Positions 27,428 to 63,912 of a stretch of 64,000 nt of DNA are shown in pieces. How positions within the stretch are numbered: position 1 is the stretch's first letter; each line of letters opens with the position of its first letter. Both the position numbers and the translations under genes were made by a program. Origin of the DNA: Polaribacter butkevichii (lineage in GTDB: Bacteria > Bacteroidota > Bacteroidia > Flavobacteriales > Flavobacteriaceae); NCBI RefSeq assembly GCF_038024105.1, contig NZ_CP150661.1:124001-188000 (forward strand), given 5' to 3'. The notes beneath the pieces were generated by a model, which saw only the letters and a program-made list of their open reading frames with translations, had not been told where the DNA came from and did no database searches.

Positions 27428-27472
27428 CAAAATTAGTTTAACATTTTGTTGCTATTATCCTGTGATATCCTG
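27428..27472 (-). promoter_or_regulatory. Direct-repeat activator site and promoter for GH2
   Basis: Read on the minus strand, CAGGAT-ATCA-CAGGAT (27472 to 27457) is followed by exactly 21 bp and then TAATTTTG, a perfect TAnnTTTG, at 27435 to 27428. This is the cleanest copy of the motif found in front of six rightward units of the locus. Confidence 0.7.
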
Positions 27473-27484
27473 CGTTATTATTTA

Positions 27485-28657
27485 CTATTTTAATAGCTTA
27501 AGTCTTAATTTAGTTTCTAGAAAATAATAATCGCCATATACAATTGGCGCATCCATTTCTGATCTTTTAGACCAATCTCCAGAACTGTGATCTAAAATAA
27601 AAGGTATGTCTAGAGTTTCAGGTAAAATGTATTTTTCTGTTTGTACATTATTCATGAATTTTTTACTGTAATTAAGGTATGTTTCGTTTTTTGTATATTC
27701 ATAAAGTTCTACCAATGCTGAGGCTACAATTGCTCCTGCGGATACATCTCTAGGTTCGTTAGGGATGTTTGGAGCATCAAAATCCCAATACGGAATACCA
27801 TCTTCAGGTAAATTTTTATGGTTTAAGAAAAAATTAGCTGTTGCTTTTGCTTGCTCTAAATATTTTTTATCTTTTGTGTATCTATAAACCATTGTAAACC
27901 CATAAATGGCCCACCCCTGACCACGAGCCCAAGAAGAGTTGTTGCTATAACCTTGATGTGTTACTTTCATTCTAATAGCTCCATTTTCTGGATTGTAGTC
28001 TAATACATGAAAACAACTATTGTCTTCTCTAAAGTGATTTTTTAATGTGGTATTTGCATGTGTTACTGCAATTTTATAAAAAGTACTGTCATTAGAAATC
28101 TTAGAAGCTTCAAACAGTAATTCTAAATTCATCATGTTATCTATAATAACAGGAAAATTCCATTTATCTTTATTAAAATCCCAAGAACGAATACTTCCAA
28201 CAGTGTTATTAAATCTAGAGCTAAGTGTTTGTGCACTTTTAACAATAATATCTTTATATTTTTGATTGTTATTATGTTTTAATGCTTGTCCAAAGCTATT
28301 ATAAACTTTAAAACCCATGTCGTGAGTTTTATCATTGTACTTTTCTTTTTCTATAAAAGCAGTCCATTTTTGTGCTAATTCTTTGTCTTTTGGGTTTCCT
28401 GTAATCTGATAAATCTGCCAGATATTTCCTGCAAAAAAACCGCTAGTCCAATCTTTAGAAGGTACTTTTTTTATTTTTTTTTCTTTCGGATTATAACTTC
28501 TAGGAAATGCTAAAGAATCTAAGTTATATTCTAAAAGTTTACTGTATCTTTTTTTTAGTTTTTGTTGATAATTATAGTTTTCTTTTTTTTCTGTTTTACA
28601 AGAAACTAAAAAACTTAATGCTATAAATAAGAGTTTAAAATGGTGTTTTTTCATCAT
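27485..28657 (-). CDS. GH88 unsaturated glucuronyl hydrolase lipoprotein
   Basis: Removes 4,5-unsaturated uronic acid from the non-reducing end of lyase products. About 391 residues from the ATG that gives a lipoprotein signal (FIALSFLVSC); the longer reading starts at a TTG with a stretch that does not look like a signal. The alpha/alpha-barrel shows the GH88 residues: DWTSGFFAGNIWQIY, catalytic Asp in IIDNMMNLELLFEAS, and SSWARGQGWAIYGF. It sits between susD and GH2. Its free product rearranges to 4-deoxy-5-keto sugar acid, the KduI substrate encoded on the other arm of the locus. Confidence 0.9.
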   Translation of the reverse strand: MMKKHHFKLLFIALSFLVSCKTEKKENYNYQQKLKKRYSKLLEYNLDSLAFPRSYNPKEKKIKKVPSKDWTSGFFAGNIWQIYQITGNPKDKELAQKWTAFIEKEKYNDKTHDMGFKVYNSFGQALKHNNNQKYKDIIVKSAQTLSSRFNNTVGSIRSWDFNKDKWNFPVIIDNMMNLELLFEASKISNDSTFYKIAVTHANTTLKNHFREDNSCFHVLDYNPENGAIRMKVTHQGYSNNSSWARGQGWAIYGFTMVYRYTKDKKYLEQAKATANFFLNHKNLPEDGIPYWDFDAPNIPNEPRDVSAGAIVASALVELYEYTKNETYLNYSKKFMNNVQTEKYILPETLDIPFILDHSSGDWSKRSEMDAPIVYGDYYFLETKLRLKLLK

Positions 28658-28831
28658 AAAATTTAAAATGTAAAGAAAATGTGTTATTCGGTTTAAAGGT
28701 ATTTTAAATCTAATATATAGAAATTCTAAAAAGGATGTAAAATTGTGCAATCACTTTATTATGAGTGTTTTATTTGTGTTTTTCTATTTTTTATTAGCTT
28801 TAAAAACGATTTAATTTTTAATTAAATCTAA

Positions 28832-28872
28832 AATTGGGTTTAGAACTTGTTTGTAAAGTTGTAAACCCAATT
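28832..28872 (-). terminator. Stem-loop after susD
   Basis: AATTGGGTTTA and TAAACCCAATT form an 11-bp stem around a 19-nt loop, followed on the minus strand by TTTTAGATTT. Probably a partial terminator that sets susC-susD apart from the enzyme genes. Confidence 0.5.
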
Positions 28873-28898
28873 AAAAAAATATGAATCAATTATATATT

Positions 28899-30431
28899 TT
28901 AGTATCCAGGATTGTTTGGCATTAGGTTTGTATTTCTTGCTAACTCATCTGCCGGTAATGGATATAAATAATCTCTATTAACATCAAAGTTAGGTCTGTA
29001 TTCTAACCCACTTGTACCAAATACATCACCATTTTCTGGGTTTGCCATTTTTCTTCTAGTAATGTCATACCATCTTTTACACTCGAAAGCAAGTTCCCAT
29101 TTACGTTCTTCTAGAACCATGGTTCTAAAATCATCTTGGTTTAAACCAGAAACATTTTCTGGAAAAGTAGCACCGTTTCTGGCTCTTGCTCTAACTCTAT
29201 TTACGTAACCATGTGCTTCTGCAGAACCAGGAGAAATTTCATTTAATGCTTCGGCAGCAATTAATAATACTTCTGCATATCTCATCATTATATAATTATT
29301 GTTAGAAGCTCTACCGTTACCTGTTGCAGAGGTTCCGTTAAAACGAGTATATTTTGCAATATGCGGTCTGTTAACACCTCTACCACTTCCTCCGTTTTCT
29401 TTAAAAACAGTATATGGTTTTACAGCACCATTAAAAACGGCAGTATTATCAAAACTTACAGCTTTTCTGTAATCTCTATCATCCCAAGTATTGTAAACAG
29501 CAAGAGTAGGTACGGCTACAGACCAACCACCACCAGATACATTAGGGTATTGTTCGTCATCTCTAAGACCTGTTAAAGCGGCTTGGTAATCTCTACCATC
29601 ATCTCCGTCACTAGCACCAATAAAATCTAAAACAAATATTGGCTCATTAGAAGCATCTACTTTAGAAGAATTAAATAAATCTTGAAAGTCTGCTTCTAAA
29701 CCTAAATTATAAACACCTTCATTATCTATAACACCTTTAGCTTCTTTATAAGCATTATCATAATCTCCAATTGTTAAATACACCAAGGCTAAATAAGAAT
29801 GAGCTGCAGATTTTGCAGGTAAAGATCTACCTGCTTGCGTATTTGGTAACCATTTTTTTGCAAATTGTAAATCTGCAATAATGTTTTTATACACATCAGC
29901 GGCAGCTGTTTTACTAAGAGAACTTGTGGTTGTTAAGTCTGTTACTGGTTTGTCTATATAAGGAATATCTCCAAATTGTCTTACTAAATGAAAGTAGGCA
30001 AAAGCTCTTGTAAAATAAGCTTGTGCTGTAACTGGGTTTTTTACGTTTTCATCTACATTTACATCTTCTGCACCTGCAATTGCTTGATTAGAAGCTGCAA
30101 TAATTTGATAAACTCTAAGCCAATAGCCTTCAACCATACCATTGTCGGCAGCAACAGTAAATTCATCATGTTCAACTCTTCTAGATGATGTTGTTAGATC
30201 TCCAATAGCTACCATATCGCTTCGTAACATTAAAGGTAAAGACATTTTTCTTCCCCAAAATTTTTCATGGGTCATATGTCCATAAGCAGCATTTACAGCC
30301 GTTTGTATGTCTTTTGGAGTATTAAAAAAACCATCTGGAGCTAATAAGCCTATAGGTTCTTCTTCTAAATTAGAACATCCAACTATTGATAAACTCATCA
30401 ATAATAAGAATATATATTTATATGTTTTCAT
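28899..30431 (-). CDS. susD: SusD/RagB-type surface glycan-binding lipoprotein
   Basis: A 510-residue SusD-like lipoprotein (Cys19 in LSIVGC) that lies on the outer face of the outer membrane and forms the lid of the SusC transporter. Family features are the N-terminal SusD-like segment (EEEPIGLLAPDGFFNTPKDI), the TPR-like core (AQAYFTRAFAYFHLVRQFGDIPYI) and the C-terminal RagB part (MMRYAEVLLIAAEALNE, ending YLYPLPADELARN). It begins 24 bp after susC and belongs to the same transcript. It sets the glycan preference of the uptake system, but the ligand cannot be read from sequence. Confidence 0.95.
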   Translation of the reverse strand: MKTYKYIFLLLMSLSIVGCSNLEEEPIGLLAPDGFFNTPKDIQTAVNAAYGHMTHEKFWGRKMSLPLMLRSDMVAIGDLTTSSRRVEHDEFTVAADNGMVEGYWLRVYQIIAASNQAIAGAEDVNVDENVKNPVTAQAYFTRAFAYFHLVRQFGDIPYIDKPVTDLTTTSSLSKTAAADVYKNIIADLQFAKKWLPNTQAGRSLPAKSAAHSYLALVYLTIGDYDNAYKEAKGVIDNEGVYNLGLEADFQDLFNSSKVDASNEPIFVLDFIGASDGDDGRDYQAALTGLRDDEQYPNVSGGGWSVAVPTLAVYNTWDDRDYRKAVSFDNTAVFNGAVKPYTVFKENGGSGRGVNRPHIAKYTRFNGTSATGNGRASNNNYIMMRYAEVLLIAAEALNEISPGSAEAHGYVNRVRARARNGATFPENVSGLNQDDFRTMVLEERKWELAFECKRWYDITRRKMANPENGDVFGTSGLEYRPNFDVNRDYLYPLPADELARNTNLMPNNPGY

Positions 30432-30455
30432 ATTTATACGTTTTTAAATTATGGA

Positions 30456-33400
30456 TTAAAATTTTATATTAAGACTAAAGTTAACAGATTGTACTGTTGG
30501 ATAATTACCAAAATCAAAGCCATTAAAAGTATTACTATCAGAACTATTTCCTCCTCCAGCACCAAAGTAGCTTACCTCTGGATCTAACCCTGAGTAATTA
30601 GTAAAAGTCAATAAATTTTGTCCGCTAATAGCTAACCTTACATTATCCATCCCTAATTTTTCTGTTACACTTGATGGTAAATTATAACCCAATGCTATAT
30701 TTTTTAATCTAATATAGCTACCGTCTTCTACAAAACGAGATGAAATTTGTTTTCCTCTAAGTTTAGCAGAAGGTACATTTGTATCTGTGTTTGTTGGTGT
30801 CCAAGCATTATTAAACAAATCTCTAGTTGTATTAGAATCTCCATTAGCTAACTGTACATTCGTTAGATTCATAATGTCTCCACCATAAGATCCTTGAAAA
30901 AAGATATTTAAATCAAAGTTTTTATAGGTAAAATTATTTGTAATACCCATGGTCCAATCTGGGTTAGGGTCTCCTATTATTTTTTGATCTGCAGTAGTTA
31001 TTTCGCCACTACCATCAACATCTGTAAATAATTGATCTCCTGCTGTTGCTCCTGCTAAAATTGCAGTTCCTGCAGGTAAATTACCTCCTTGGTAAACTCC
31101 TTGGTATTCATACCCCCAAAAAACACCCACAGCTTCATCTTCTCTTAAAACATGTGTACGTGGTATGTTAAAATAACCAGGAGAGGCATCTTGAAATATA
31201 TCTTGACCATTTAATAATGTAACAAATTTATTTTTATTGGTAGACCAGTTAAAGTCTGTTGTCCAAGTAAAATTGTCGTTACTTATATTTCTTGTATTTA
31301 AAGTAATTTCAAAACCTTTGTTATTTACCTCACCAACATTTCTTAAACTAGCCGGAGTTAGAAAACCTAAATATTGTGGTTGACTAGAATCTTGTATAAT
31401 AAGATCTTTAGTATTTATATTATAATAATCTAAGGAAAGAGAAACTTTACTATTGTACATACTTAAATCTAAACCAACATTTGTTTGGTAAGAAGATTCC
31501 CATTTTAAATTAGGATTAGCAACTTGGTTTGGGGTAACATTAATTACTGTTGATCCATTTATAGGAGTATATACAGAACCAAAACTAGATAATGATTGAT
31601 AAGGAGCAATAGATTGATTACCAGTAACACCGTAACTTGCTCTTAACTTTAAATTAGAAATCGTTTTGCTTTCTTTTAAGAAGTTTTCATTAGAAATTTT
31701 CCAACCTAAAGCACCAGAAGGGAAAATGGCATATTTTTCATTGGCAGCAAAATTAGAGGCACCATCTCTTCTTACAGTAGCTGTTATTAAATATTTATCA
31801 TTATAATCGTAGTTTACCCTACCAAATTGAGATTGAATTTCTGATTCTGATAAAGATGATGTTGGAATTAATTGTGTTGCTCCAGACCCTAAATTATAAT
31901 AAGAGAAAGAATCAGATGTAAACCCTTCTGCTCCTGCAGAAAAACGATCTGTAGATGTTTTTTGATAAGAATAACCTGCTAATAAAGTTAAGTTACCTTT
32001 ACCTATTTCTGTATTATAAGTTAAGTAATTTTCACTTAATACGGTGGTTCTTTTATAGTTTGTAATTGTAGCTCTACCACCTGTACTACCACCAGCAGTA
32101 GTAATTAATGTAGAGGGTCTAAAAACACCTTCTGTACCGTTAGCAGTACTTAAACCAAAAGTAGTTTTAAAAGCAAGGTTTTCTAAAATATCATAATTAG
32201 CATACATGTTGGCTCTAAAATTATCTGTTTTTGTTTCATTAATCCCTTCTGTTGCAATTGCGTATGGATTATCTACGTTATCACCTATAGAATTAACAGT
32301 ATTTTGGCCGTTTGCATCTAAGATACCTAAATCAGGAGAAAAACGAAAGCTTAAAGACACAACATCATCTCCACCACCATTAGCAGTTTCACCTGTAGAT
32401 TGTGTAGGCACTCCGTTTTTATCGCCTCTACTGCCAAAAAGATTTAACCCTAATTTTAATTTATCAGTTACTTGTGCATCAATATTTGATAAGAAAGATA
32501 CTTTTTCAAATTGAGAGTTTATAATAACACCTTCTTGTTTAAAATAAGTAGCAGAAGCATAAAAGTTAATGTTTTCACTTCCACCAGAAAAAGAAAATTG
32601 ATGGTTTTGTGTAGTACCTGCTCTATATAATAAATCTTGCCAATTTGTATTAGCAGTTCCTTTTGTGTACCCTGGGTTTATTGCTGTTTGATAAGCTCCA
32701 AATTCAGTTGCATTTAATAAATCTAACTCATTTGCGGTGTTTTGTACAGAGTAATTAGTATTAAATTCTACAGATATTTTACCAGTTCTACCTTTTTTGG
32801 TAGTTACCATTACAACCCCATTAGAACCTCTAGAACCATAGATGGCAGTTGCAGAGGCATCTTTTAAAACTTCCATAGACTCAATGTCGTTTGGTTGTGG
32901 CATTGTTGCGCCTACAAAACCATCTACAACAATTAGAGGAGAACTACTTGCGTTAATAGAAGTGTTTCCTCTAATTTTTATATTGATTGGCGCTCCAGGC
33001 TCACCCCCATTGTTAGATTGTACAACCACACCAGCAGCTCTACCTTGTAAAGCTTGTGCTGCATTTAAAACAGGAAAAGCGTTTAATTCTTCTGATTTTA
33101 CAGAAGATACAGACCCTGTTATGTCACTTTTTTTACGAGAACCATAACCTACTACTACAATTTCATCTAGTGCATTTGAATTTTCTACTAAAGCAATATT
33201 AATAGTTGTTTTTCCATTAACCATTACTTCTTGTTTTTCATAACCTAAATAGCTAAAAATTAATATATCATCAGCTTTTTTTGTTGTAATAGTATAAAAT
33301 CCATCAAAATCTGTGACAGTACCAATTGTTGTTCCTTTTACTTGAATTGTTACTTCTGGAATAAGGCTCCCTGTGACCTTATCTGTTACTGTACCCGTTA

Positions 33401-33482
33401 CTTTTTGTTGAGACATTACGACCAATGGCACAAAAAGTAAGAAGAAAAGCGAAAGCTTTTTAATTGAATTTTTTTTTGACAT
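30456..33482 (-). CDS. susC: SusC/RagA TonB-dependent outer-membrane transporter
   Basis: About 1008 residues from the ATG that gives a signal peptide (IKKLSLFFLLFVPLVVMSQ); an earlier ATG adds 13 unlikely residues. After it come a carboxypeptidase-D-like regulatory domain (VTGTVTDKVTGSLIPEVTI), a TonB box area, the plug domain with GAPINIKIRGNTSINASSSP and the SusC signature DGFVGATM...VLKDASATAIYGSRGSNGVV, then a beta-barrel ending in the aromatic NFSLNIKF. It imports oligosaccharides across the outer membrane with SusD. The 240-bp upstream region has an inverted repeat TACTAT-N8-ATAGTA but not the direct repeat shared by the other units. Confidence 0.95.
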   Translation of the reverse strand: MSKKNSIKKLSLFFLLFVPLVVMSQQKVTGTVTDKVTGSLIPEVTIQVKGTTIGTVTDFDGFYTITTKKADDILIFSYLGYEKQEVMVNGKTTINIALVENSNALDEIVVVGYGSRKKSDITGSVSSVKSEELNAFPVLNAAQALQGRAAGVVVQSNNGGEPGAPINIKIRGNTSINASSSPLIVVDGFVGATMPQPNDIESMEVLKDASATAIYGSRGSNGVVMVTTKKGRTGKISVEFNTNYSVQNTANELDLLNATEFGAYQTAINPGYTKGTANTNWQDLLYRAGTTQNHQFSFSGGSENINFYASATYFKQEGVIINSQFEKVSFLSNIDAQVTDKLKLGLNLFGSRGDKNGVPTQSTGETANGGGDDVVSLSFRFSPDLGILDANGQNTVNSIGDNVDNPYAIATEGINETKTDNFRANMYANYDILENLAFKTTFGLSTANGTEGVFRPSTLITTAGGSTGGRATITNYKRTTVLSENYLTYNTEIGKGNLTLLAGYSYQKTSTDRFSAGAEGFTSDSFSYYNLGSGATQLIPTSSLSESEIQSQFGRVNYDYNDKYLITATVRRDGASNFAANEKYAIFPSGALGWKISNENFLKESKTISNLKLRASYGVTGNQSIAPYQSLSSFGSVYTPINGSTVINVTPNQVANPNLKWESSYQTNVGLDLSMYNSKVSLSLDYYNINTKDLIIQDSSQPQYLGFLTPASLRNVGEVNNKGFEITLNTRNISNDNFTWTTDFNWSTNKNKFVTLLNGQDIFQDASPGYFNIPRTHVLREDEAVGVFWGYEYQGVYQGGNLPAGTAILAGATAGDQLFTDVDGSGEITTADQKIIGDPNPDWTMGITNNFTYKNFDLNIFFQGSYGGDIMNLTNVQLANGDSNTTRDLFNNAWTPTNTDTNVPSAKLRGKQISSRFVEDGSYIRLKNIALGYNLPSSVTEKLGMDNVRLAISGQNLLTFTNYSGLDPEVSYFGAGGGNSSDSNTFNGFDFGNYPTVQSVNFSLNIKF

Positions 33483-33567
33483 AAAATTAGATATTAATTG
33501 ATTAAAAAAATAGTAAACCATAATGGTTTACAGTATTAAAATTAAAGAGAAATGCACTTAAAAAAAA

Positions 33568-33587: not shown

Positions 33588-33719
33588 CTTTAATTAAAAG
33601 GTTATTTCCTTTTTTTATAAAATTAATTTAAACTCCTGAAATAGAAATACAGAATAGGTAGTAAAAACGTACAAACCTTTATATATAGAGGCGTATTAAA
33701 GTAAAAAATATATTGCTAA

Positions 33720-36700
33720 CTAGTAGTTAGAAAATTTATTTGAATATTGAGTAGGGGTTTCTCCAAATTTTTTAACAAAGCATTTGCTAAAATATTTAGG
33801 ATTTTTAAAGCCAACTTTACAACTAATTTCAGAAACATTAATTTTACCCTGTTCTAGTAATTGTGTGGCACGTTTCATTCTAAAATGTTGAATAAAATCA
33901 TTTGGGGTAAAGTTAGTCCATGCTTTAATTTTTATAAAAAGCATCGTTCTACTAACACCTAATTCCGAACAAAAATAAGGAATATCAAATTCTTCATTAG
34001 AAATATTGGCTTCTACAATTTTTAAGGCTTTTTTATATAATTTTTCGTCTAAAGAAGAAATTACAAGTTCATTTTGAAATAGTGCCTCACTACTAGAAAA
34101 TTTTTCTTTTAGTCGATTAGTTGTATTTAATAAATTTTTAATTTTTATTTTAAATTCATCAACATTAAAAGGTTTACTGATGTAAGAATCTGCACCACTT
34201 TCTAAACCTTCTAATTTATAAATTAAGGAAGACCTAGAGGTTAGAAGAATAATAGGAATATGGCTTGTTTTTATGTTGCTTTTAATTTCAGAACAAAGTT
34301 CTGTACCTACCATTACAGGCATTATTACATCACTTACAATAAGATTTGGTACATTTTTTATAGCAATATTTAATGCAATTTCTCCATTTTCTGCTTCTAA
34401 AATATTGTAATTTTCTTTTAGCAAATCTTTCATAAATTTACGCAAAGGCTTGTTATCTTCTACGAGTAGAATAGTGTCTTTGTTTGGGTCGGTTATTTTA
34501 TCAGATAAATTATCTTCTAAAATAACAACGGGTTCATTTAGTTGTGTAATGTATTGAGAAACATCATCGCTAAATTTAAAGTTTTGTATAATTTCATCTT
34601 CATTTAAATGATGTTTTCCTAAAGGTATAATTACACTAAAAATAGAACCTTTATCATTTTTATTATTTTTAACCTCTAGGTTTCCTTTATGAAGGGTTAC
34701 AATATTTTTTGCAATAGATAAACCAATTCCAGTTCCTTTATTGTAATCTTTTTCTGGATTATTGTTTGCGGTAACTTCAAAAAAACGATCAAATATTTTT
34801 TGTTTATTTTCTTCGGATATTCCAACACCTGTATCTTCTACAGATATAATAACGGTATTGTTTTCTTTTTTTACATGTATCTGTATTGATCCATTTTGTG
34901 GGGTGTATCTAAATGCGTTAGAAATTAAGTTATAAAAAACACGTTCTAATTTATAGCGATCATAATAAACTAATATGTTGTCATCTGTAGTGTGAAAGTT
35001 AAAATCGTAATTTCCATTTTTAGCGTATTCAGAGAATGATAAAAAGATTTCTTTTAAGAATTTTACAATATTACCTTCTGCGGCTTCTAATTTAAAAAGA
35101 TTTTTTTCGAGCTTTCTAAAATCCATTAATCGGTTAATTAATTGTAGTAAATGTTTTGCACTATTTTCTACAACCAATAACTTTTTATACATTTTACTAT
35201 TGCCTTTGTAGTTTGTTAGTATTTGTTGTAAAGGGCCTAGTATTAAGGTAAGGGGAGTTCTAAACTCATGAGAAATATTTGTAAAGAATTCTAGTTTAGC
35301 TCTATTATTCTCTTCAATTTTTGTGTTTTCTAAAAGTTCTAAATCTAATTTATATTTTAATTGTGTTTTAGATTTTTGTATTTGAATTAAAAAATAAAGT
35401 GCCGTGGCAATAATGCATCCATATAACAAAAAAGCCCACCAACTTCTCCAAGGTGCAGGACTAACATTTATATTTAGTATGGTGGGTTTTGTGTTCCAAA
35501 AGCCATCATTATTGGCTCCTTTTACTTCAAAAATATAATTTCCAGGATTTTGTAGTGTATAAGATGCTGAATTATCTGAGGTAAATATCCACTCTTTTTC
35601 TAATCCCTTTAAGCGATATTGGTAGGTGTTATTTTTTGCATTAATAAAGTTAGGAATTGAAAAGTAAATAGAAAAGTTTCCTTCTTCATAAGACAAAGAA
35701 ATATGCTCTGTATAACCAATTGTGTTTTTTAAAATGTTAGAAGCATCTTTAACTTTTACAGATTTATTTTTTATTTTAAAATCTGTTATTAAAACTTGTG
35801 GAATATAGTTGTTTGTTTTAAGGTTATCTGTGTTAAAAGAAGTTGCCCCATTTGGTCCGCCAAAATAGAATTGAGAAGGTTTAATTTTTAGGCTTGAGTT
35901 GTCATTAAATTCATTACTTATTAATCCGTCTTTTTGATTGTATGTTGTTGATTTTTTTGTGTCTATATTGTATTTAATTATTCCTTCGTTAGTACTAATC
36001 CAAAGATTTTTTTCTTCGTCTTCTAAAATACTATGAACATTAGAGATATTGTTTTTTTTACCATGAATGGCAATCTTTTTAAAAATACTACCTTCTAGTT
36101 TAAACAAGCCTTTTGCCTTTGTGCCTACCCAAATTGTTTTGTTTTTGTCTTCAAAAACGGTAGAAATGTCATCGCCAGATTGCGTATTATTATCATAAAA
36201 ATATCTTTGAATTTTATGATTATTTGTAATTTTATTTAATCCTCTTTGTGTACAAACCCAAACGTTATTTTTAGAGTCTATGGTTAAAGATCTTACTAAA
36301 TTATTTGTTAAAGAATCATCATCAGAAAAAATGTTTTTAAATATTTTATAGCTTTTTAATTTTGTATTATACTTAACAACACCAAAACCAAATACACCAA
36401 ACCAAAGCGTTTTTTCTGAATCTTTTTTTATGGAATACACATTTTTATCTTGTAATAAATCTATAATTACTTTTGTGCTTTCATCATTTTTTATATTTTT
36501 TTTGTCTAAATCGTAAATGGCAATGCCATTACTAAAGGTACCAATCCATAGTAAGTTTTTATCAACAAAAAGAGATTTTATGTTTTTATTAGGTAAAATA
36601 GAATTGTTGTTTTGGTCTAAATATTTTAAATTATTTGTTTTTGTATTAAAAATATTTACTCCTTTTCCTTCGGTTCCAAAAAATAATAAATTATTATAGG

Positions 36701-37790
36701 TTTCAATAGAACTAATAACATTGTAGTTAATTTTTTTTAAGTTATTGTTCTCAGAAAAATTAATAAAATTACTGTTTTCTTCATCCCAAATATTTACACC
36801 TCCGTAATAGGTGCCCACCCAAATAGATCCTTTTTTGTCTTTTAGTATAGATTTAATACTATTTTTACTTAAGCTTTTAGAATTGTTTGTATTGTTTTTT
36901 AAGGTTTGTATTTTTTTGTTTTTATCAAGAATGTATAAACCGTTGTAAGTACCTATCCAAAGTTGATTTTTGCGATCAAAAATAAGTTGTCTAACATCAT
37001 TAAATACTTTTTTTTGATTGCTCTCTGATAAAAAGTTTTTTACATCTTTTTTAATAGGATTAAAAAATAAAACGCCTTTGTTTTTGGTGGCAATTAAAAT
37101 GGTTTTATCTACATTTTCTATTAATTGTTGAATATGAATATCTGTGTAATTCTTAAAAGTAAAAGCCTCTTTTATTCTATTAGTTACTATGCTTAATCCT
37201 TTATTTGTGCCAATGTAAATGGTGTTTTCTTTAGTTTCTAATATTGATGAAACGAAATTACTTGCTAAACTTTGGTTATTTGCATTGTTATGATAGAGAT
37301 TTACAAAATAGTCTGTTTTTTTATTGTAGATAGATAGTCCGTTAGAGGTTGCTATCCAGATTTCACCGTTAGACATTTCTTTAATATCCCAAATAGTATT
37401 GTTGCTTAAAGAGTTTGTTTTATTGTTATGTAAATAGTTGGTAAAAGTATTTTTTTTTGGGTCGTATTTATTTAAACCATTGTAAGTACCAATCCAAATA
37501 AAGCCATCTTTATCTTCTACTATCGATGATACATCGTTGTTACTTATAGAGTTTTTGTCTCCAGGGATATTTCTATAAATGGTAAAAGTATTACCATCAT
37601 ATTTATTTAAACCATCTCTTGTGCCAAACCACATTTGTCCCAATTTATCTTGATGAATTGCAATCACAGAACTTTGCGAGAGCCCATCTGAAGTAGATAT
37701 ATGGTTAAATTGAATTTCTTCTGATTGAGAATAACTAAAAAAGCAATTTATCGTAAAAGAGAAAACAAATAATAGATGTTTAATATTCAT
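33720..37790 (-). CDS. Hybrid two-component system regulator of the utilisation locus
   Basis: A 1356-residue inner-membrane protein that combines sensor, kinase and transcription factor. It has a signal peptide, two seven-bladed Reg_prop propellers with repeats such as LGQMWFGTRDGLNKY, a Y_Y_Y domain (about 720-790), one transmembrane helix near 805, HisKA with the phospho-His in FFTNISHEFRTPL, HATPase (DTGVGIS, GTGIGLSIAKN), a receiver with Asp in LIVSDVIMP, and a C-terminal AraC-type HTH (ELGVSRTMLFIKI...KVGFKNPKYFSKCF). It senses a periplasmic oligosaccharide and activates locus genes. It lies between susC and the LacI gene and is the best candidate to bind the CAGKAT-N4-CAGGAT repeats. 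Confidence 0.95.
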   Translation of the reverse strand: MNIKHLLFVFSFTINCFFSYSQSEEIQFNHISTSDGLSQSSVIAIHQDKLGQMWFGTRDGLNKYDGNTFTIYRNIPGDKNSISNNDVSSIVEDKDGFIWIGTYNGLNKYDPKKNTFTNYLHNNKTNSLSNNTIWDIKEMSNGEIWIATSNGLSIYNKKTDYFVNLYHNNANNQSLASNFVSSILETKENTIYIGTNKGLSIVTNRIKEAFTFKNYTDIHIQQLIENVDKTILIATKNKGVLFFNPIKKDVKNFLSESNQKKVFNDVRQLIFDRKNQLWIGTYNGLYILDKNKKIQTLKNNTNNSKSLSKNSIKSILKDKKGSIWVGTYYGGVNIWDEENSNFINFSENNNLKKINYNVISSIETYNNLLFFGTEGKGVNIFNTKTNNLKYLDQNNNSILPNKNIKSLFVDKNLLWIGTFSNGIAIYDLDKKNIKNDESTKVIIDLLQDKNVYSIKKDSEKTLWFGVFGFGVVKYNTKLKSYKIFKNIFSDDDSLTNNLVRSLTIDSKNNVWVCTQRGLNKITNNHKIQRYFYDNNTQSGDDISTVFEDKNKTIWVGTKAKGLFKLEGSIFKKIAIHGKKNNISNVHSILEDEEKNLWISTNEGIIKYNIDTKKSTTYNQKDGLISNEFNDNSSLKIKPSQFYFGGPNGATSFNTDNLKTNNYIPQVLITDFKIKNKSVKVKDASNILKNTIGYTEHISLSYEEGNFSIYFSIPNFINAKNNTYQYRLKGLEKEWIFTSDNSASYTLQNPGNYIFEVKGANNDGFWNTKPTILNINVSPAPWRSWWAFLLYGCIIATALYFLIQIQKSKTQLKYKLDLELLENTKIEENNRAKLEFFTNISHEFRTPLTLILGPLQQILTNYKGNSKMYKKLLVVENSAKHLLQLINRLMDFRKLEKNLFKLEAAEGNIVKFLKEIFLSFSEYAKNGNYDFNFHTTDDNILVYYDRYKLERVFYNLISNAFRYTPQNGSIQIHVKKENNTVIISVEDTGVGISEENKQKIFDRFFEVTANNNPEKDYNKGTGIGLSIAKNIVTLHKGNLEVKNNKNDKGSIFSVIIPLGKHHLNEDEIIQNFKFSDDVSQYITQLNEPVVILEDNLSDKITDPNKDTILLVEDNKPLRKFMKDLLKENYNILEAENGEIALNIAIKNVPNLIVSDVIMPVMVGTELCSEIKSNIKTSHIPIILLTSRSSLIYKLEGLESGADSYISKPFNVDEFKIKIKNLLNTTNRLKEKFSSSEALFQNELVISSLDEKLYKKALKIVEANISNEEFDIPYFCSELGVSRTMLFIKIKAWTNFTPNDFIQHFRMKRATQLLEQGKINVSEISCKVGFKNPKYFSKCFVKKFGETPTQYSNKFSNY

Positions 37791-37842: not shown

Positions 37843-38928
37843 TTATGAAGATTTTTGTAAATCACTTTCATGAATAAAATCATTTTGCATATTATATTTT
37901 ACATTTTCTTTAATAAGAATATCTATTGGAAGATGAATTTTAGCATTTGGTATTTTATTATAAATTAAGTAATCAGAAAATAATCTGATAGCTTCATAAC
38001 CTTGATCAAAAGGTTTTTGAGAGATTAAAAAAGACACGTGGTCGTTTAATAAGCACTCGGTGTTTTGTGGTGTATTGTCAAAACCAATTAAATCTATGTT
38101 TTTTAAATGGCTCTTTTCTAGACATTCAACTACAATATAAATTCTACTCGATGGTACAAAAATTCCTTTAATTTCTGTATGAATTTTTAAGTAGTTGTTT
38201 ATTATTTCTTTTGTTTCTAGAGTATTATTTAAATTTTCAATTTTTAAAGTTTGAGTTTTAGAATTAATTTTATTTTTTAAAAAATAGTCATTAAAACCTT
38301 TAATTCTATTAGAAACAGCATTGTTTTTGGTAATATTATATCTAGATTGAATAATTAAAAACTCTGAGGGTTTTGGAGTGTTAAAATGCATTAATTTACC
38401 AGCAATATAACCTGCGGTATAAGAATCTTGACCAACATAAGCGATGTTGTTAAAACCTTTAATATCAATATTTAAAAATAAGTAAGGAATGTTTAACGTT
38501 TCTAATTGAGTAACAATTGTATGCGTTTCTTTTGAAAAATTAGGAACCATTATAACCGCTGTTGGGTTTGTGGCTAATAAAGTTCTAAAAGTATTAAAAT
38601 AAGAAAGAGGATCGTATTGATTAAATGTAAAAATATTAATTTGTACCCCATAACTCTTAACATCGTCAGCAGCTTTTAAGATGCCCAAGTAGGGTGATTT
38701 CCAAAAAAGGTCATCCTCTTTATACTCAGGAATAAGAACTGATATTTGGTGTTTGTTTTTCATTGCAAGAGCACTAGCAACAGGGTTTACACTAAAATTA
38801 TGATGATCTAGTATTTTTCTGATTCTAGTTTCTGTTTTTTTAGAAACACCACCTCTGTTGTGTATCACTCTATCTACAGTACCTTCAGAAACGTTGGCTT
38901 CTTTTGCAATATCTTTTATTGTAATCAT
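37843..38928 (-). CDS. LacI-family transcriptional regulator
   Basis: A 361-residue regulator when started at the ATG preceding MITIKDIAKEANVSEGTVD; the upstream extension lacks family similarity. The HTH is followed by the hinge (NPVASALAMKN) and a periplasmic-binding-protein-like sugar domain (FLNIDIKGFNNIAYVGQDSYTAGYIAG, IKGFNDYF, IDLIGFDN). It is divergent to the uxuB-uxuA-kduI-kduD-TRAP operon, and two GTGTACGCACAC operators lie between, so it most likely represses that operon and is relieved by a uronate intermediate. The effector is unknown. The hybrid regulator gene follows after 52 bp, so the two may be co-transcribed. Confidence 0.88.
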   Translation of the reverse strand: MITIKDIAKEANVSEGTVDRVIHNRGGVSKKTETRIRKILDHHNFSVNPVASALAMKNKHQISVLIPEYKEDDLFWKSPYLGILKAADDVKSYGVQINIFTFNQYDPLSYFNTFRTLLATNPTAVIMVPNFSKETHTIVTQLETLNIPYLFLNIDIKGFNNIAYVGQDSYTAGYIAGKLMHFNTPKPSEFLIIQSRYNITKNNAVSNRIKGFNDYFLKNKINSKTQTLKIENLNNTLETKEIINNYLKIHTEIKGIFVPSSRIYIVVECLEKSHLKNIDLIGFDNTPQNTECLLNDHVSFLISQKPFDQGYEAIRLFSDYLIYNKIPNAKIHLPIDILIKENVKYNMQNDFIHESDLQKSS

Positions 38929-39034
38929 TTTTAAAGTGGTAATCTCTAGTGTTTTATGTTGGTTTTTGTGAAAAAAAACTGGATAAGGTCTTCTTCTTAA
39001 TTTTAGGCAATTTAGGTAAAAAAATAATAATTTA

Positions 39035-39048
39035 GTGTACGCACACGA
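39035..39048. promoter_or_regulatory. LacI operator, upstream copy
   Basis: GTGTACGCACACGA, near-palindromic about a central CG. It is identical to the copy 32 bp downstream, about three helical turns away, so two bound dimers would lie on the same DNA face. Confidence 0.65.
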
Positions 39049-39059
39049 TTTTTTTTTGT

Positions 39060-39080
39060 TACATTTGTGTACGCACACGA
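39060..39080 (+). promoter_or_regulatory. uxuB operon promoter with overlapping LacI operator
   Basis: TACATTTG (39060-39067) is a perfect TAnnTTTG element. The second GTGTACGCACACGA copy (39067-39080) begins on its last base, so a bound repressor would cover the transcription start. This repeats the geometry seen in front of kdgK. Confidence 0.7.
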
Positions 39081-39122
39081 AAACACACAATTAATAATTT
39101 TAATAAATTAAGAAGTTTAATA

Positions 39123-39950
39123 ATGAATAAAACAATTGTATTAACTGGAGCTGGAGGAGTTTTATGCAGCACATTGGCATTGGCACTTGCAAAGCAAGGA
39201 AATAATGTTGCTGTTTTAGATTTAAGAAAAGATGCTGCAGATAAAGTAGCTAAAGAAATTAATAGTGCAGGAGGAAAAGCAATAGGTGTTGCCGCTAATG
39301 TTTTAGAAAAAGATTCTTTAATAGAGGCTAAAAAAGTGGTAAATGAAGCTTTTGGTAAAGTAGATATTTTGGTTAATGGAGCAGGAGGTAACCATCCTTT
39401 AGGGACTACTTCAAATCCGTTTTTAGAATTAGAAGATTTAGCAAATAAAACAGAAGGTTTTAAAACTTTTTTCGATTTAGATCCAAAAGGAATCGAGTTT
39501 ACATTTAACTTAAACTTTTTAGGAACTTTAATTCCAACTCAGGTTTTTGCAACAGATATGGTTGGTAGAGAAGGGTGTTCTGTTTTAAATATTTCTTCTA
39601 TGAATGCATTTACTCCATTAACAAAAATACCAGCTTATAGTGGGGCAAAAGCAGCCGTTTCTAATTTTACACAATGGTTGGCAGTTCATTTTTCTAAAGT
39701 AGGTATTCGTGTAAACGCATTGGCTCCTGGTTTTTTCTTAACAGATCAAAACAGAAGTTTGTTAACAGAAACAGACGGAAGCTTAACACAAAGAGGGCAA
39801 CAAATTATAGATCAAACACCAATGAGCCGTTATGGAGAACCAGAAGATTTAGTAGGTACTACATTATGGTTGTGTGGTGAAGGTTCAAAATTTGTAACAG
39901 GTGTTGTAGTGCCAATTGATGGTGGGTTTGCAGCTTATAGCGGTGTTTAA
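39123..39950 (+). CDS. uxuB: D-mannonate oxidoreductase (SDR type fructuronate reductase)
   Basis: A 275-residue short-chain dehydrogenase that should reduce D-fructuronate to D-mannonate with NAD(P)H. The nucleotide-binding loop ([14 protein letters not shown]), the NGAGG motif, the catalytic Ser in NISSMNAF and YSGAK, and the C-terminal [10 protein letters not shown] are intact. Insertion [19 protein letters not shown] after the NGAGG motif is typical of the SDR enzymes that replace classical UxuB in Bacteroidota. It is followed by uxuA after 14 bp, which supports the assignment. It is the first gene of the operon under the double LacI operator. Confidence 0.85.
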
Positions 39951-39964
39951 TAAAAAGTAATAAA

Positions 39965-41152: not shown

Positions 41153-41168
41153 AAAGAATAAAAATTAC

Positions 41169-41196
41169 ACCTCATAAGTTTAAAAACTTATGAGGT
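41169..41196. repeat. Intercistronic palindrome between uxuA and kduI
   Basis: ACCTCATAAGTTT and AAACTTATGAGGT form a perfect 13-bp stem with a 2-nt loop, without a T-run. It is more likely a processing or stability hairpin, or a dispersed flavobacterial palindromic element, than a terminator. Confidence 0.55.
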
Positions 41197-41219
41197 AAAA
41201 AATTATAAAATAAAATATT

Positions 41220-42059: not shown

Positions 42060-42064
42060 AAAAA

Positions 42065-44010: not shown

Positions 44011-44021
44011 ATCAATATATA

Positions 44022-45478: not shown

Positions 45479-45483
45479 AAGAT

Positions 45484-46902: not shown

Positions 46903-46947
46903 CAGTATAGTAAAGGACACAATTACATTGTTTGCTAATTATCTTTG
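46903..46947 (+). promoter_or_regulatory. Direct-repeat activator site and promoter, unit 1
   Basis: CAGTAT-AGTA-AAGGAC (46903-46918), then 21 bp, then TATCTTTG (46940-46947), a perfect TAnnTTTG. The second half-site differs at two positions from CAGGAT. Confidence 0.7.
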
Positions 46948-48308: not shown

Positions 48309-48353
48309 CAGTATAGTACAGGATGCAATTATTAGAATGCGAGAATATATTTG
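48309..48353 (+). promoter_or_regulatory. Direct-repeat activator site and promoter, unit 2
   Basis: CAGTATAGTACAGGAT (48309-48324), 21 bp, then TATATTTG (48346-48353), a perfect TAnnTTTG. The preceding ACATAG is shared with unit 4. Confidence 0.75.
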
Positions 48354-48386
48354 TTGAAACGAGTATTAATTAATAATAAAAAACTT

Positions 48387-49523: not shown

Positions 49524-49568
49524 CAGTATAGTGCAGGATGGTTTTATTTGTTTGGTAAACTAAATTTA
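49524..49568 (+). promoter_or_regulatory. Direct-repeat activator site and promoter, unit 3
   Basis: CAGTATAGTGCAGGAT (49524-49539), 21 bp, then TAAATTTA (49561-49568), one base off TAnnTTTG. Confidence 0.7.
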
Positions 49569-52197: not shown

Positions 52198-52242
52198 CAG
52201 TATAGTGCAGGACACTTAGTTTTTTTTCTATGATTAAATTAG
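52198..52242 (+). promoter_or_regulatory. Direct-repeat activator site and promoter, unit 4
   Basis: CAGTATAGTGCAGGAC (52198-52213), 21 bp, then TAAATTAG (52235-52242), one base off TAnnTTTG. Confidence 0.65.
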
Positions 52243-52736: not shown

Positions 52737-55700
52737 ATGATGTTTAAATTACATTTCAAAAAAACATTTTATCTAATATTAATGTCCAGCTTTATTTTAA
52801 CGTCTTGTGCCAATACAAACCAAGACCTATCTAAAGAAGCAATTACTGAAAAAGGTAATAGAATCAAATATAATTTTAATCTGGACTGGAAATTTATTAA
52901 AGAAAATCCGGAAAAAGCACAAGATAAAAATTTTGACGATAGCTCTTGGAGTACAGTAAGTGCACCACATACCTTTAATGATATAGATACTTTTGATGAT
53001 TTAAGCCTTGGTGGCCATAAAGGAGAGAAAAATCAGTGGAGAGGTACTGTGTGGTATAGAAAACACTTTAAATTACCAGCAAAAGAAGCCGATAAAAAGG
53101 TGTATATAGAGTTTGAAGGTGTACGTCAAATTGCAGATGTGTACATTAATGGACACTATTTAGGTAAAAATCAAACAGGGTTTATTCCTTTTGGATATGA
53201 TATTTCATCATATTTAAAATTTGGTACAGAAGAAAATGTTATTGCAGTTAAAGTGAATAACGATAGAAAAAGCGATAACTTTAGAGATAATGACCCTTTA
53301 GTTTGGAATCATGAACATTGGCATCCAACACATGGTGGTATTTATAGAAATGTTTTTCTACACACAATGGATCCTTTACATGTTACCCTACCACTTTATG
53401 ATAATTTAGAAACTGTTGGTACATATGTTTATGCAGATAACATTACAGCTACAAATGCAGATGTAACTACAAATGCAGAGGTTTTAAATGAATATGAAAC
53501 AGAAAAAGAAGTTACCTATGTAACACAGATAGTAGATAGAGAAGGGCAAGTAGTGGCTACTTCATCAGCAAATAAAAAATTAAAAGCTAAAGAAAAATTT
53601 ACATTTTCTACAACAGCAAGTGTATCAAATCCTAAACGTTGGTATACACGTAACCCATATATGTATAAGGTTTTAACTTTTTTAAAAGAAGGAGATAAAA
53701 TTGTTGATAGATATGAAACTCCTTTAGGTATTAGAAGTTTCGAATTTAATAAAGATTCTGGTTTTTATAATAATGGAGAGCATGCAAAATTACATGGTTG
53801 GGGACAAAAACCTACAAATACATGGGCTGGTTTAGGAGCAGCATTACCAGATTGGTTAAGAGAGTATACTTTTGATTTAATGGATAAAGCAGGTGGTAAT
53901 TTTATACGTTGGGGACATTGTGCAGGATCTCCGGCAGAAGTTGCTTTTGGAGATAAATATGGTTTTGTAACATTAATGCCAGGGGTGTCAGGAGAATCTC
54001 AAGATGAAGGAGAAGTTTGGGATATTAGAATAAAAGCATTTAAAGATATGATGGTTTATTACAGAAATCATCCATCTATTTTTATTTGGGAAGGTGGTAA
54101 TTGGGCAGAAACAGAAGCGCACTATAAAGAAATATTAGATATTATTGCAACCGTTGATCCTAATGGAAAGAGATTAATGGGTAACAGACGTTCTGATACA
54201 AAAATAGAGTCTGAAAAGTATGTTACCATAGAAGTAGGAACAGAAGGATGGGAAAGAGAGTTTGCTAGTTTACCTCTTATAGAAAGTGAATATATGAGAG
54301 ATGAAGCCCCAAGACGTATTTGGGATAAATACTCTCCGGATGATAATTTTTGGAACAATCCTAATTTAAGTAAAAATACTTATGATATAGGATCAGAACA
54401 ATTTGCCGTTGGTCAAGTACATCATTGGTGGACTAAAATGGGTAAAAAACCATTTCATAGTGGTGGCGCAAATTGGGTGTTTTCAGACGGACCTCATGGA
54501 GGTAGAAACCCTACAGAGGTTACAAGAGCTAGTGGAGAAGTAGATGGAGTTAGATTACCTAAAGAAGCTTTTTATGCAGTAAAAGCGATGTGGAGGCCAG
54601 AAGCTCAGATACATGTTATTGGTCATTGGAATTATAAAGAAGGAACTAAAAAAGACATGTATGTAATTTCTAACTGCGAAACGGTTAAATTATATGTAAA
54701 TGGTAATTTATTAGGAACAAATTCTAAACCAGTTGATGGGTATGTTTATAAATTCTCTAATGTAGAATGGAAATCTGGTGAAATTAAAGTAGAAGGATAT
54801 TTAAATGATAAATTAGTAGTCTCGCAAACAAAAAAGACAATTGGAGATCCAGTAGCTATTAAATTGACACCAATTACTGGGGCCAAAGGATGGCTTGCAG
54901 ACGGGTCTGATATTGCATTATTAGATTTTGAAGTTGTTGATAAAAATGGAAATAGATGTCCTTTAGATGCAGGTCGTGTAGACTTTACTATTTCTGGTCC
55001 TGCAATATGGCGTGGGGGATATAATAGCGGAAAAGCAAATTCTACCAATAATTTATATTTAGATACAGAAGCCGGAATTAATAGAGTAGCAATTCGTTCT
55101 CTTTTAAAAGCAGGCGATGTAACAATTACTGCGTCAAGAAAAGGGATAAAACCGGCAACTATAACCTTAACTTCTTTACCAATTGATATTACTGATGGAT
55201 TAACAACAACACTTCCTCAGGGGTATTATGATGGAGTTATTGCGGAAGAACCAGTACCAGTTCATATACCAAAAATGCCTCCTTATGTACCAGGAATTAA
55301 AAATAGAAGTGAATTATTTACTAATTTTAGTTATACAGGTGATGCAAAAGCGATGTTGAGAACTACAATGAATTGGGGTAAAAAAGCATATACAGATTTA
55401 GATCAGAATTATACTGTTATTCCAGGTTATCTAAGATTTGCAGAATATATTAGAACTCCAAATTCAGATACAAAATATTGGGCTAGAGATCAGTTGCAAT
55501 TTATTGCAGGGGCAGATATGGAAATTTATGTATTGCATGATGATCGTGTAAAAAGACCAGCGTTTTTGTTAGAAGACTATAAAGATATTGGAGATAATGT
55601 TAATGTTGGTACAGTAACAATGTCTGTTTTTAAAAGAACAGCCAAAAAGGGAGAAAGTATTATTATGGCAGGAAATAGTGATAGCGGTGTGCCTAAAGAT

Positions 55701-55739
55701 AGTAGAATGTATACCGTTATAGGAAAGAAAATAAAATAG
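52737..55739 (+). CDS. GH2-family lipoprotein with altered acid/base region
   Basis: A 1000-residue lipoprotein (Cys in FILTSCAN). The GH2 jelly roll (about 45-215), Ig-like domain (220-330) and TIM barrel (about 340-640) are followed by Ig-like domains and an extra C-terminal beta domain (about 880-1000; YLRFAEYIRTPNSDTKYWARDQ). The nucleophile region is present (PLIESEYM), but where most GH2 enzymes read NE after the IIWSxG strand this one has FIWEGGNWAE. The acid/base may have moved or the activity may be unusual. It probably acts in the periplasm on locus oligosaccharides. No own direct-repeat promoter is seen, so it may be expressed with the small gene upstream. Confidence 0.82.
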   Translation: MMFKLHFKKTFYLILMSSFILTSCANTNQDLSKEAITEKGNRIKYNFNLDWKFIKENPEKAQDKNFDDSSWSTVSAPHTFNDIDTFDDLSLGGHKGEKNQWRGTVWYRKHFKLPAKEADKKVYIEFEGVRQIADVYINGHYLGKNQTGFIPFGYDISSYLKFGTEENVIAVKVNNDRKSDNFRDNDPLVWNHEHWHPTHGGIYRNVFLHTMDPLHVTLPLYDNLETVGTYVYADNITATNADVTTNAEVLNEYETEKEVTYVTQIVDREGQVVATSSANKKLKAKEKFTFSTTASVSNPKRWYTRNPYMYKVLTFLKEGDKIVDRYETPLGIRSFEFNKDSGFYNNGEHAKLHGWGQKPTNTWAGLGAALPDWLREYTFDLMDKAGGNFIRWGHCAGSPAEVAFGDKYGFVTLMPGVSGESQDEGEVWDIRIKAFKDMMVYYRNHPSIFIWEGGNWAETEAHYKEILDIIATVDPNGKRLMGNRRSDTKIESEKYVTIEVGTEGWEREFASLPLIESEYMRDEAPRRIWDKYSPDDNFWNNPNLSKNTYDIGSEQFAVGQVHHWWTKMGKKPFHSGGANWVFSDGPHGGRNPTEVTRASGEVDGVRLPKEAFYAVKAMWRPEAQIHVIGHWNYKEGTKKDMYVISNCETVKLYVNGNLLGTNSKPVDGYVYKFSNVEWKSGEIKVEGYLNDKLVVSQTKKTIGDPVAIKLTPITGAKGWLADGSDIALLDFEVVDKNGNRCPLDAGRVDFTISGPAIWRGGYNSGKANSTNNLYLDTEAGINRVAIRSLLKAGDVTITASRKGIKPATITLTSLPIDITDGLTTTLPQGYYDGVIAEEPVPVHIPKMPPYVPGIKNRSELFTNFSYTGDAKAMLRTTMNWGKKAYTDLDQNYTVIPGYLRFAEYIRTPNSDTKYWARDQLQFIAGADMEIYVLHDDRVKRPAFLLEDYKDIGDNVNVGTVTMSVFKRTAKKGESIIMAGNSDSGVPKDSRMYTVIGKKIK

Positions 55740-55933: not shown

Positions 55934-55978
55934 CATAATAGTACAGGATAGAGTCAAAAAATTAAAAGCTTAACCTTG
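55934..55978 (+). promoter_or_regulatory. Direct-repeat activator site and promoter, unit 5
   Basis: CATAATAGTACAGGAT (55934-55949), 21 bp, then TAACCTTG (55971-55978), one base off TAnnTTTG. It serves the six- or seven-gene operon that follows. Confidence 0.65.
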
Positions 55979-57580: not shown

Positions 57581-57588
57581 AGATAACA

Positions 57589-59932: not shown

Positions 59933-59947
59933 TAAATAATAGTAATA

Positions 59948-62218: not shown

Positions 62219-62220
62219 AG

Positions 62221-63354: not shown

Positions 63355-63368
63355 AATTTAAAAAAAAA

Positions 63369-63426
63369 GATGCCTTATTTGTTCTCTTTATATATTCTTT
63401 AAAAACAAACAAGCAAATAAGGTGTC
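63369..63426 (+). terminator. Attenuator-like hairpin between GH105 and the mutarotase gene
   Basis: GATGCCTTATTTG pairs along 13 bp with CAAATAAGGTGTC, two of them G-U, around a 32-nt loop. Only a poor T-run follows, so partial termination is more likely than full. Confidence 0.45.
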
Positions 63427-63483
63427 TAAGTCTTTTAATAAAACGATTAAGTTTTTGTTTTTAAAACAAATAAAAAAAATAAA

Positions 63484-63801
63484 ATGAAAGAAAGGTTAGC
63501 TTTTAAAATGAAATTAAAAGAAGGTCAGAAAGAGGAGTATTATAAAAGGCATAATGCTATATGGCCAGAATTAAAACTTTTATTAAAACAAACCGGTATA
63601 AGTGAATATTCTATTTTTTTTGATGAAGAAAGCAACTCGCTTTTTGCATTTCAGAAAGTAGAATCAGGAGCAAGTTCTCAAGATTTATCAGAAAACCCTA
63701 TTGTTAAAAAATGGTGGGATTATATGGCAGATATCATGGAGGTAAGATCAGATAATTCTCCAATATCAAAAGTATTAGAAGAGGTTTTTTATTTAGAATA
63801 A
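63484..63801 (+). CDS. rhaM: L-rhamnose mutarotase
   Basis: A 105-residue RhaM-family protein that interconverts alpha and beta anomers of L-rhamnose. The sequence shows AFKMKLKEGQKEEYYKRHNAIWP, with the key His, then ISEYSIFFDEESNSLFAFQKVE and WWDYMADIMEVR. Length and motifs fit the family; related L-fucose mutarotases are the main alternative. It follows the GH105 gene after 129 bp with a hairpin in between. Its presence argues for a rhamnose-containing substrate, though no rhamnose isomerase or kinase is in the window. Confidence 0.85.
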   Translation: MKERLAFKMKLKEGQKEEYYKRHNAIWPELKLLLKQTGISEYSIFFDEESNSLFAFQKVESGASSQDLSENPIVKKWWDYMADIMEVRSDNSPISKVLEEVFYLE

Positions 63802-63867
63802 TTTTTAAACAAGTTAACTGCTTGTAAAGTAGTTGTTTGTATGGTAGTTGTTTTTTTAATACCTTTA

Positions 63868-63912
63868 CAGTACAGAACAGGATGGGTTAGAGCAAATGTA
63901 TTTATAAATTTA
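63868..63912 (+). promoter_or_regulatory. Direct-repeat activator site and promoter, unit 6
   Basis: CAGTACAGAACAGGAT (63868-63883), 21 bp, then TAAATTTA (63905-63912), one base off TAnnTTTG. A near-copy, ACAGAACAGAATGGG, recurs at 63921-63935 over the start codon of the next gene. Confidence 0.65.

Follow-up and report, generated by a model that had tools for sequence, protein, structure and literature searches.

We analyzed a window of 64,000 nucleotides from Polaribacter butkevichii (G000:C1:124001–188000, in a 4.08-Mb contig), in which seven promoters share a block consisting of a short direct repeat, a spacer and a TAnnTTTG box. The original prediction had described the repeat as CAGKAT-N4-CAGGAT, set exactly 21 bp before the box and in front of carbohydrate genes, and had named the AraC-type domain of a hybrid two-component system (HTCS) encoded in the window as its natural reader. 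All seven sites were found where predicted, and the gap between the 16-bp repeat block and the −7-like box was exactly 21 bp at each of the seven. The letters themselves were less uniform: the repeat was exact at three sites and had 1, 1, 2 and 2 mismatches at the others, and the box was exact at three sites and had one mismatch at four. TAnnTTTG is the sigma-A −7 box described for F. psychrophilum (PMC9723704; papers given by PMC number are cited from excerpts throughout).

Site 1 lies on the minus strand (27428..27472; block 27472–27457, 21-bp spacer, TAATTTTG) before the GH2 gene 24990–27407, and scored 28.9 bits on the weight matrix introduced below; the other six sites are on the plus strand. 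Site 2 (46903..46947, 30.0 bits) precedes a 379-aa gene of no recognised family (46991–48130). Site 3 (48309..48353, 38.4 bits) precedes the gene of a 330-aa protein sorted by the type IX secretion system (48351–49343), the real start of which probably lies downstream, and site 4 (49524..49568, 35.5 bits) a 495-aa gene, also of no recognised family (49605–51092). Site 5 (52198..52242, 33.9 bits) is followed by a 111-aa open reading frame (ORF) and a 1000-aa GH2 gene (52737–55739). Site 6 (55934..55978, 23.2 bits) stands before a run, presumably one transcript, that opens at 55976 with a ThuA/3-keto-disaccharide hydrolase and continues with a MocA-type oxidoreductase, GH43, GH3, GH88 and rhaM; the last encodes L-rhamnose mutarotase (63484..63801, plus strand), of which all six genomes compared have a homologue in their block-bearing loci. 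Site 7 (63868..63912, 35.9 bits) precedes the gene of a GntR-type regulator, which begins at 63931 and extends beyond the window. The predicted placement before carbohydrate genes was thus established for three of the seven sites, namely those before the two GH2 genes and the run from 55976; three first genes have no recognised enzyme family, and the site at 63868 stands before a regulator gene.

At no more than one mismatch, CAGKAT-N4-CAGGAT had six matches in the window against 0.40 expected from shuffles. These were five of the seven sites and the repeat at 51978–51993, which has one mismatch, lacks a −7 box at 21 bp and is probably a chance match. A weight matrix built from 118 distinct sites picked out exactly the seven sites and no others in the window at a threshold of 13 bits (23.2 to 38.4 bits), and its maximum in 40 Markov-simulated windows averaged 4.9 bits, with one at 18.4; because the matrix was trained partly on these very loci, its scores are not independent of them. 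The box, at no more than one mismatch, occurred at 122 of 5992 sampled intergenic positions (2.0%), so that its presence at one offset in seven of seven sites is not due to chance.

The original prediction had proposed a genome scan with the 45-bp block. The scan gave 28 matches at up to three mismatches against 5 for the backwards control, and all seven matches with zero or one mismatch lay at 151–216 kb and 343 kb. The regulon therefore extends beyond the window, with a second locus at 326–354 kb. This locus carries a bifunctional rhamnulose-1-phosphate aldolase, a sugar kinase, an aldolase, an aldehyde dehydrogenase, a LutA-like gene, a transporter, two GntR-type regulators and a gene of the rhamnose isomerase type, which scored under the curated cut-off. 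Further targets beyond the window included an ulvan-lyase beta-trefoil-domain gene (219451), SusC (196753) and a rhamnosidase (262078, first 641 residues scanned). Genes of the RhaD, GntR, LutA-like, transporter, ulvan-lyase, sulfatase-rhamnosidase and GH78 types each have a site no more than 100 bp before their start. The sulfatase-rhamnosidase gene (G000:C1:215734–219264) joins sulfatase and alpha-L-rhamnosidase domains in one protein behind a block. Because the genes at 46991–48130, 48351–49343 and 49605–51092, for which searches of solved structures gave no match, fall in the predicted regulon, they are candidates for new ulvan or rhamnan enzymes.

Our candidate regulator, RhaR(GntR), is a protein of about 348 aa encoded in the same genome at C1:342069–343115, with a paralogue at 340931–341980 that is 68–69% identical. 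The GntR winged helix (PF00392) scored above its cut-off in all three paralogues scanned, though only just in the third, and GntR-family structures matched residues 6–87. The sensor domain is predicted to be of the LacI/GalR type: Peripla_BP_3 exceeded its cut-off in the 340931 paralogue, fell short of it in 342069 and was absent from the third, and a structural model of a 96% identical homologue (P0001, 43 sequences; pLDDT 85, pTM 0.69) had LacI-type repressors as its top matches. Among the matches listed, the closest named homologue came from a Polaribacter (96%), and the named proteins among the best 120 of 3649 homologues were GntR family regulators or similar. The third paralogue is the gene behind site 7 (63931..64000 within the window, plus strand; G000:C1:187931–188932, 333 aa). 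It is more likely a target than the regulator, because it is only 32% identical to RhaR(GntR) and has Phe at the recognition-helix position that varies.

We compared the distribution of the block with that of both candidate regulators over 397 same-family genomes, membership of the Flavobacteriaceae being taken from the names of regulator homologues. At up to two mismatches the block occurred in 94 of 397 genomes, with 498 matches against 5 for the backwards control, a background low enough for the motif to predict the regulon in a member genome. A GntR orthologue with a best E ≤ 1e-110 was present in 79 genomes. Every one of the 74 genomes with at least two blocks carried this orthologue, the remaining five of the 79 had one block each, and 483 of the 498 matches fell in these 79 genomes. 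Among the 318 genomes without a close GntR, none had two blocks and 15 had one. The association (phi) was 0.96 for GntR, against 0.47 (E = 0) and 0.37 (E ≤ 1e-200) for the HTCS. In 28 of 30 loci, the GntR gene had a core match (two mismatches or fewer) no more than 1.5 kb away.

The idea that the HTCS binds and activates the seven sites through its AraC-type domain has some points in its favor. It lies in the same locus as the sites, and 24 of the 28 genomes with the closest HTCS class (E = 0) had at least two blocks (p 1e-15); in addition, 9 of 29 HTCS loci (L101–L129) had a core match within 1.5 kb. HTCS homologues at E ≤ 1e-200 were found in 73 of 397 genomes, two best candidates being scored per genome. 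However, the closest class was missing from 50 of the 74 genomes with at least two blocks, and 34 genomes with an HTCS (E ≤ 1e-200) and no close GntR included none with two blocks and three with one. The block was absent from four genomes with close HTCS orthologues (G010, G242, G246 and G322; 49–60% identity), and the flanks of a 67% identical HTCS (L068) held no block at up to four mismatches in 10 kb. It was abundant in six genomes where no HTCS at E ≤ 1e-200 was found (G070, G132, G265, G127, G045, G212).

A different repeat accompanies the HTCS gene itself (33720..37790, minus strand; Reg_prop, Y_Y_Y, HisKA, HATPase, receiver and HTH_18 domains). Directly behind this gene and before SusC, at 33673–33642 on the minus strand, lies TGTACGTTTTTACTACCTATTCTGTATTTCTA, a direct repeat with its two TGTA starts 22 bp apart, followed after 16 bp by TAATTTTA (33625–33618). 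This is probably the true operator of the HTCS, and the SusD and SusC pair (28899..33521, minus strand), which has none of the seven sites, is probably its target. A TAnnTTT[GA] box stood 16 bp past the best repeat match in 21 of 29 HTCS loci (own, L068, L101–L127; count read from printed rows) and was missing in eight. The repeat had no more than five mismatches in only 8 of the 29, and many of the others were at or near the level of shuffles. Genome-wide, at up to three mismatches, it occurred once, with a control of 0. Bacteroides HTCS motifs are likewise direct repeats before genes of polysaccharide utilization loci (PULs), with tandem sites on average 21 bp apart (PMC3878776); the seven sites, with their 10-bp period, differ from this spacing, whereas the repeat at 33642–33673 fits it, so that the AraC-type activator idea probably applies to the SusC promoter instead. 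The block tracks the GntR/LacI-type protein far better than the HTCS. We concluded that the HTCS is probably not the regulator of the seven sites, a role that we consider highly improbable for it, and that the regulator of the block is very likely RhaR(GntR).

We then compared block-bearing loci from five other genomes, none of which has an HTCS of the closest class, that of G110 being remote. SusC, SusD, sulfatases and rhaM were common to these loci and our own. Rhamnose enzymes and a GntR-type gene were present in four of the five; those of G265 lie outside the stretch compared (1826284, 1830115). Two other AraC-type genes near the locus in our genome (228456–229331 and 282810–283958) were rejected as regulators, since no AraC-type gene is common to the five other loci, although the G110 locus has one of its own. 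The LacI-type gene at 37843–39090 was rejected as well, as it was in no shared cluster among the 40 widest gene clusters listed.

Linked genes are not separable by co-occurrence alone, and the block could be bound by another factor that always accompanies the GntR gene or the rhamnose pathways; some sites do lie far from GntR, and one RhaD site (G417) has no GntR nearby. Rhamnose isomerase (E ≤ 1e-60) was present in 92 genomes, and the 17 of these without a close GntR included none with two blocks and three with one. Conversely, four GntR genomes without rhamnose isomerase had 2, 3, 2 and 4 blocks. That is, because isomerase-only genomes lack block pairs and GntR-only genomes have them, the block is tied to GntR and not to rhamnose use. 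The absence of a common AraC-type gene from the five loci also speaks against such a factor, as do the joint changes in recognition helix and site described next, and we regard this explanation as very unlikely.

Ten of the 17 isomerase genomes carry a remote GntR (38–41% identity) no further than about 13 kb from RhaD or RhaI. In the recognition helix, seven of the ten remote orthologues have Val at a position that is Glu in 35 of 36 other aligned rows (our own 342069 being counted twice); the sole non-Glu among the 36 is our paralogue at 187931, with Phe. For all seven Val orthologues the best nearby site reads A at positions 3 and 13, despite a matrix that favors G; these sites are CAGAAC-N4-CAGAAC or near it, with the same 21 bp to the box. 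Two remote Glu orthologues (G020, G064) have sites that keep G at 13, and the G-type candidate of the third (G024) is weak, at 9.9 bits. Six of the seven remaining isomerase genomes without GntR (G207, G298, G272, G249, G291 and G325; not G327) had no site above 10 bits in stretches of 6–9.5 kb, that of G207 ending at the contig end. A search for the A-type block (up to two mismatches, 28 genomes) found ten matches covering all seven Val genomes, all with A at 13, one of them probably by chance. The three remote Glu genomes had no match. A further 23 matches came from ten other genomes and had G at 13 except one in G212; position 3 is A in two of the 23, those in G163 and G070. In our own alignment, taken from the PKY start, FadR Arg-49 and AraR Arg-67, both of which contact the DNA backbone, line up with the Glu/Val residue, and an Arg four residues before the latter lines up with the base-reading Arg-63 of AraR (PMC4494728).

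The logo of the 118 sites refined the repeat to CAGKAYAG-TR-CAGGATRS, in which two equally oriented octamers recur with a period of 10 bp. The N4 of the first consensus is not free but reads AG-T-R, and the block is two bases longer (R, S) than first stated. Since the 118 sites were gathered with a pattern that fixed most core letters, independent findings are limited to the T at position 8, the R and S at positions 16–17, the flanking bases and the spacer. Information content nowhere exceeded 0.15 bits at positions 21 to 36, which make up most of the spacer before the −7 box. Some sites are extended upstream by a third or fourth unit of 10 bp (343215 in our own genome, L207, G044), and at sites with additional units the last one stays 21 bp from the box.

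We searched the 79 GntR genomes for the exact core followed by an exact TAnnTTTG at any gap from 6 to 36 bp. Results showed 64 matches (counted from rows, near-identical pairs from related genomes included), of which 61 had a gap of 21 bp; the backwards control gave 0. The other three had gaps of 22, 8 and 31 bp, and at 31 bp an extra 10-bp unit puts the last repeat at 21. In loci selected by GntR, 37 of 49 core matches (overlapping ones included) had a −7 box with at most one mismatch at 21 bp, and the next-best offset had 6. Sites of at least 20 bits in eight loci lay outside ORFs of 150 aa or more in 75 of 77 cases, though 88% of the sequence is coding, and 71 of the 77 had a downstream gene start within 350 bp; the matrix that defined these 77 contains the −7 box, so they do not test the phase. 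The original prediction had included one shared regulator acting in fixed phase from a site that covers the usual −33 region, in the manner of class II activation, and this part was supported.

A downstream element at a fixed distance would also be seen if the block were the −35 element of an alternative (extracytoplasmic function, ECF) sigma factor; an 18-bp direct repeat with optional 10-bp units is, however, unlike a −35 box. The downstream box is moreover the sigma-A −7 sequence (PMC9723704), and we give this explanation almost no chance. More serious is the possibility that the same GntR/LacI protein binds the block as a repressor and is released by rhamnose, because the site overlaps the −33 region of the polymerase and AraR, which has the same domain plan, is called a repressor in PDB entries. 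Yet repression does not need a constant distance to the −7 box, and the distance was exactly 21 bp in nearly all matches and was kept by the last unit where extra units occur. We therefore consider repression unlikely.

The sites, their phase, the link to GntR and the content of the regulon were all computed from the genomes, and on them we base the following model. Subunits of RhaR(GntR) would read the two octamers one helical turn apart, and their common orientation suggests head-to-tail contact of the DNA-binding domains. With the sigma-A −7 box of the promoter 21 bp away, the protein would lie next to RNA polymerase and, on binding L-rhamnose or an early metabolite of it, would recruit polymerase in the class II manner. 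The content of the regulon points to rhamnose or a close metabolite as the ligand, and the fixed phase points to activation. Ulvan-degrading enzymes, L-rhamnose catabolism, lactate/lactaldehyde oxidation and the regulator's own gene would then be switched on together, with the HTCS separately controlling the neighbouring SusCD pair. That the block is the operator-promoter of a rhamnose-responsive GntR/LacI hybrid acting as a class II activator is, in our judgment, probable. A fuller statement has about an even chance of being right: that a single activator of this kind, on head-to-tail octamers, governs both rhamnose catabolism and entire sets of ulvan/rhamnan PUL enzymes in many Flavobacteriaceae, that the HTCS keeps only the SusCD uptake gate, and that the Glu/Val residue sets the base in both half-sites.

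Several points weigh against this model. Many sugar-responsive GntR and LacI-type regulators are repressors, and physical binding, the ligand and activation rather than repression are steps that we infer. A −33 element was absent from 20 other promoters too, in what is a small control set. The GntR cut of E ≤ 1e-110 was chosen after the gap down to 4.8e-78 had been seen, and at E ≤ 1e-30 a GntR homologue is present in 167 of 397 genomes, and most of those added by this looser cut lack blocks. In one Val genome (G247) the site close to GntR is weak, at 5.6 bits, and the seven Val orthologues may represent one evolutionary event. Blocks also occur outside the family: at up to two mismatches they were found in 17 of 295 class-level genomes (backwards control 4), three of them our own or same-family, and five of the 295 had at least two. 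The other 14 were G427 with eight, G431 with three, G417, G504 and G599 with two each and nine with one; clusters lie at L231 (G427), L232–L233 (G431) and L234 (G417). Single 17–40-kb stretches of G427, G431, G504 and G599 held no GntR, rha or HTCS homologue, GntR not having been searched genome-wide. One G417 site stands directly before RhaD in a stretch with RhaD, RhaI and RhaK, and within 20 kb around it no GntR was found, again without a genome-wide search. Finally, the typical GntR operator is a palindrome, direct repeats being described for the FarR, NagQ, NanR and MocR types (PMC4494728).

Among the closest known parallels to RhaR(GntR) is the AraR subfamily, described for Firmicutes and typified by B. 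subtilis AraR, which likewise joins a GntR winged helix to a GalR/LacI-type sugar-binding domain and controls a sugar and its polysaccharides (PMC4494728). In our alignment RhaR(GntR) appears to retain the PKY motif and, in its recognition helix, the base-contacting Arg. In contrast, AraR responds to arabinose and binds a GT/AC palindrome, whereas the system here is rhamnose-linked and uses a one-turn direct repeat in fixed promoter phase; the 118-site logo is a direct repeat with flanks that are not palindromic, the flanks being free and the core imposed by the pattern. MocR-type activators (GabR, TauR, PdxR) share the GntR domain, direct repeats and, under our model, activation, and a head-to-tail contact of DNA-binding domains is proposed for them as well, but they have an aminotransferase-like sensor domain and a proposed repeat spacing wide enough for looping (PMC5320631).

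Known L-rhamnose regulators belong to the AraC, DeoR and LacI families; they too control rha genes, and the sites of DeoR-family RhaR are direct repeats with 10–11 bp periodicity (PMC3870299). The DNA-binding domain here is GntR instead, and that survey does not use the word GntR, nor does its figure list Flavobacteriales. The RhaR of B. thetaiotaomicron is an AraC-type protein that targets one operon only, and FucR and ManR of this species are classed as GntR members (PMC3878776). A literature search (titles and abstract starts among the matches listed; open-licence papers only) found no GntR-type rhamnose regulator in Bacteroidota. For Zobellia, the title of a cited paper reports a GntR repressor that acts on alginate use, and Formosa ulvan lyases are said to be induced by rhamnose. 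For ulvan degradation in marine Flavobacteriaceae our results offer a regulator, an operator and a likely inducer that can be tested, and breakdown of this green-seaweed polysaccharide appears tied to use of its main sugar. They suggest that polysaccharide loci can be commanded by a sensor of the end-product sugar and not only by a local HTCS.

Two further arrangements were observed. The window contains a uronate-type run (39123–46782; UxuA, KduI, short-chain dehydrogenases/reductases, TRAP transporter) divergent from the LacI-type gene, and none of the seven sites lies upstream of its first gene. Elsewhere, a GntR paralogue lies directly beside an HTCS homologue (G000:C1:3067931–3073163, and in G071, G152, G339, G383, G044 and G145), which suggests paired sensors of monosaccharide and oligosaccharide at other loci.

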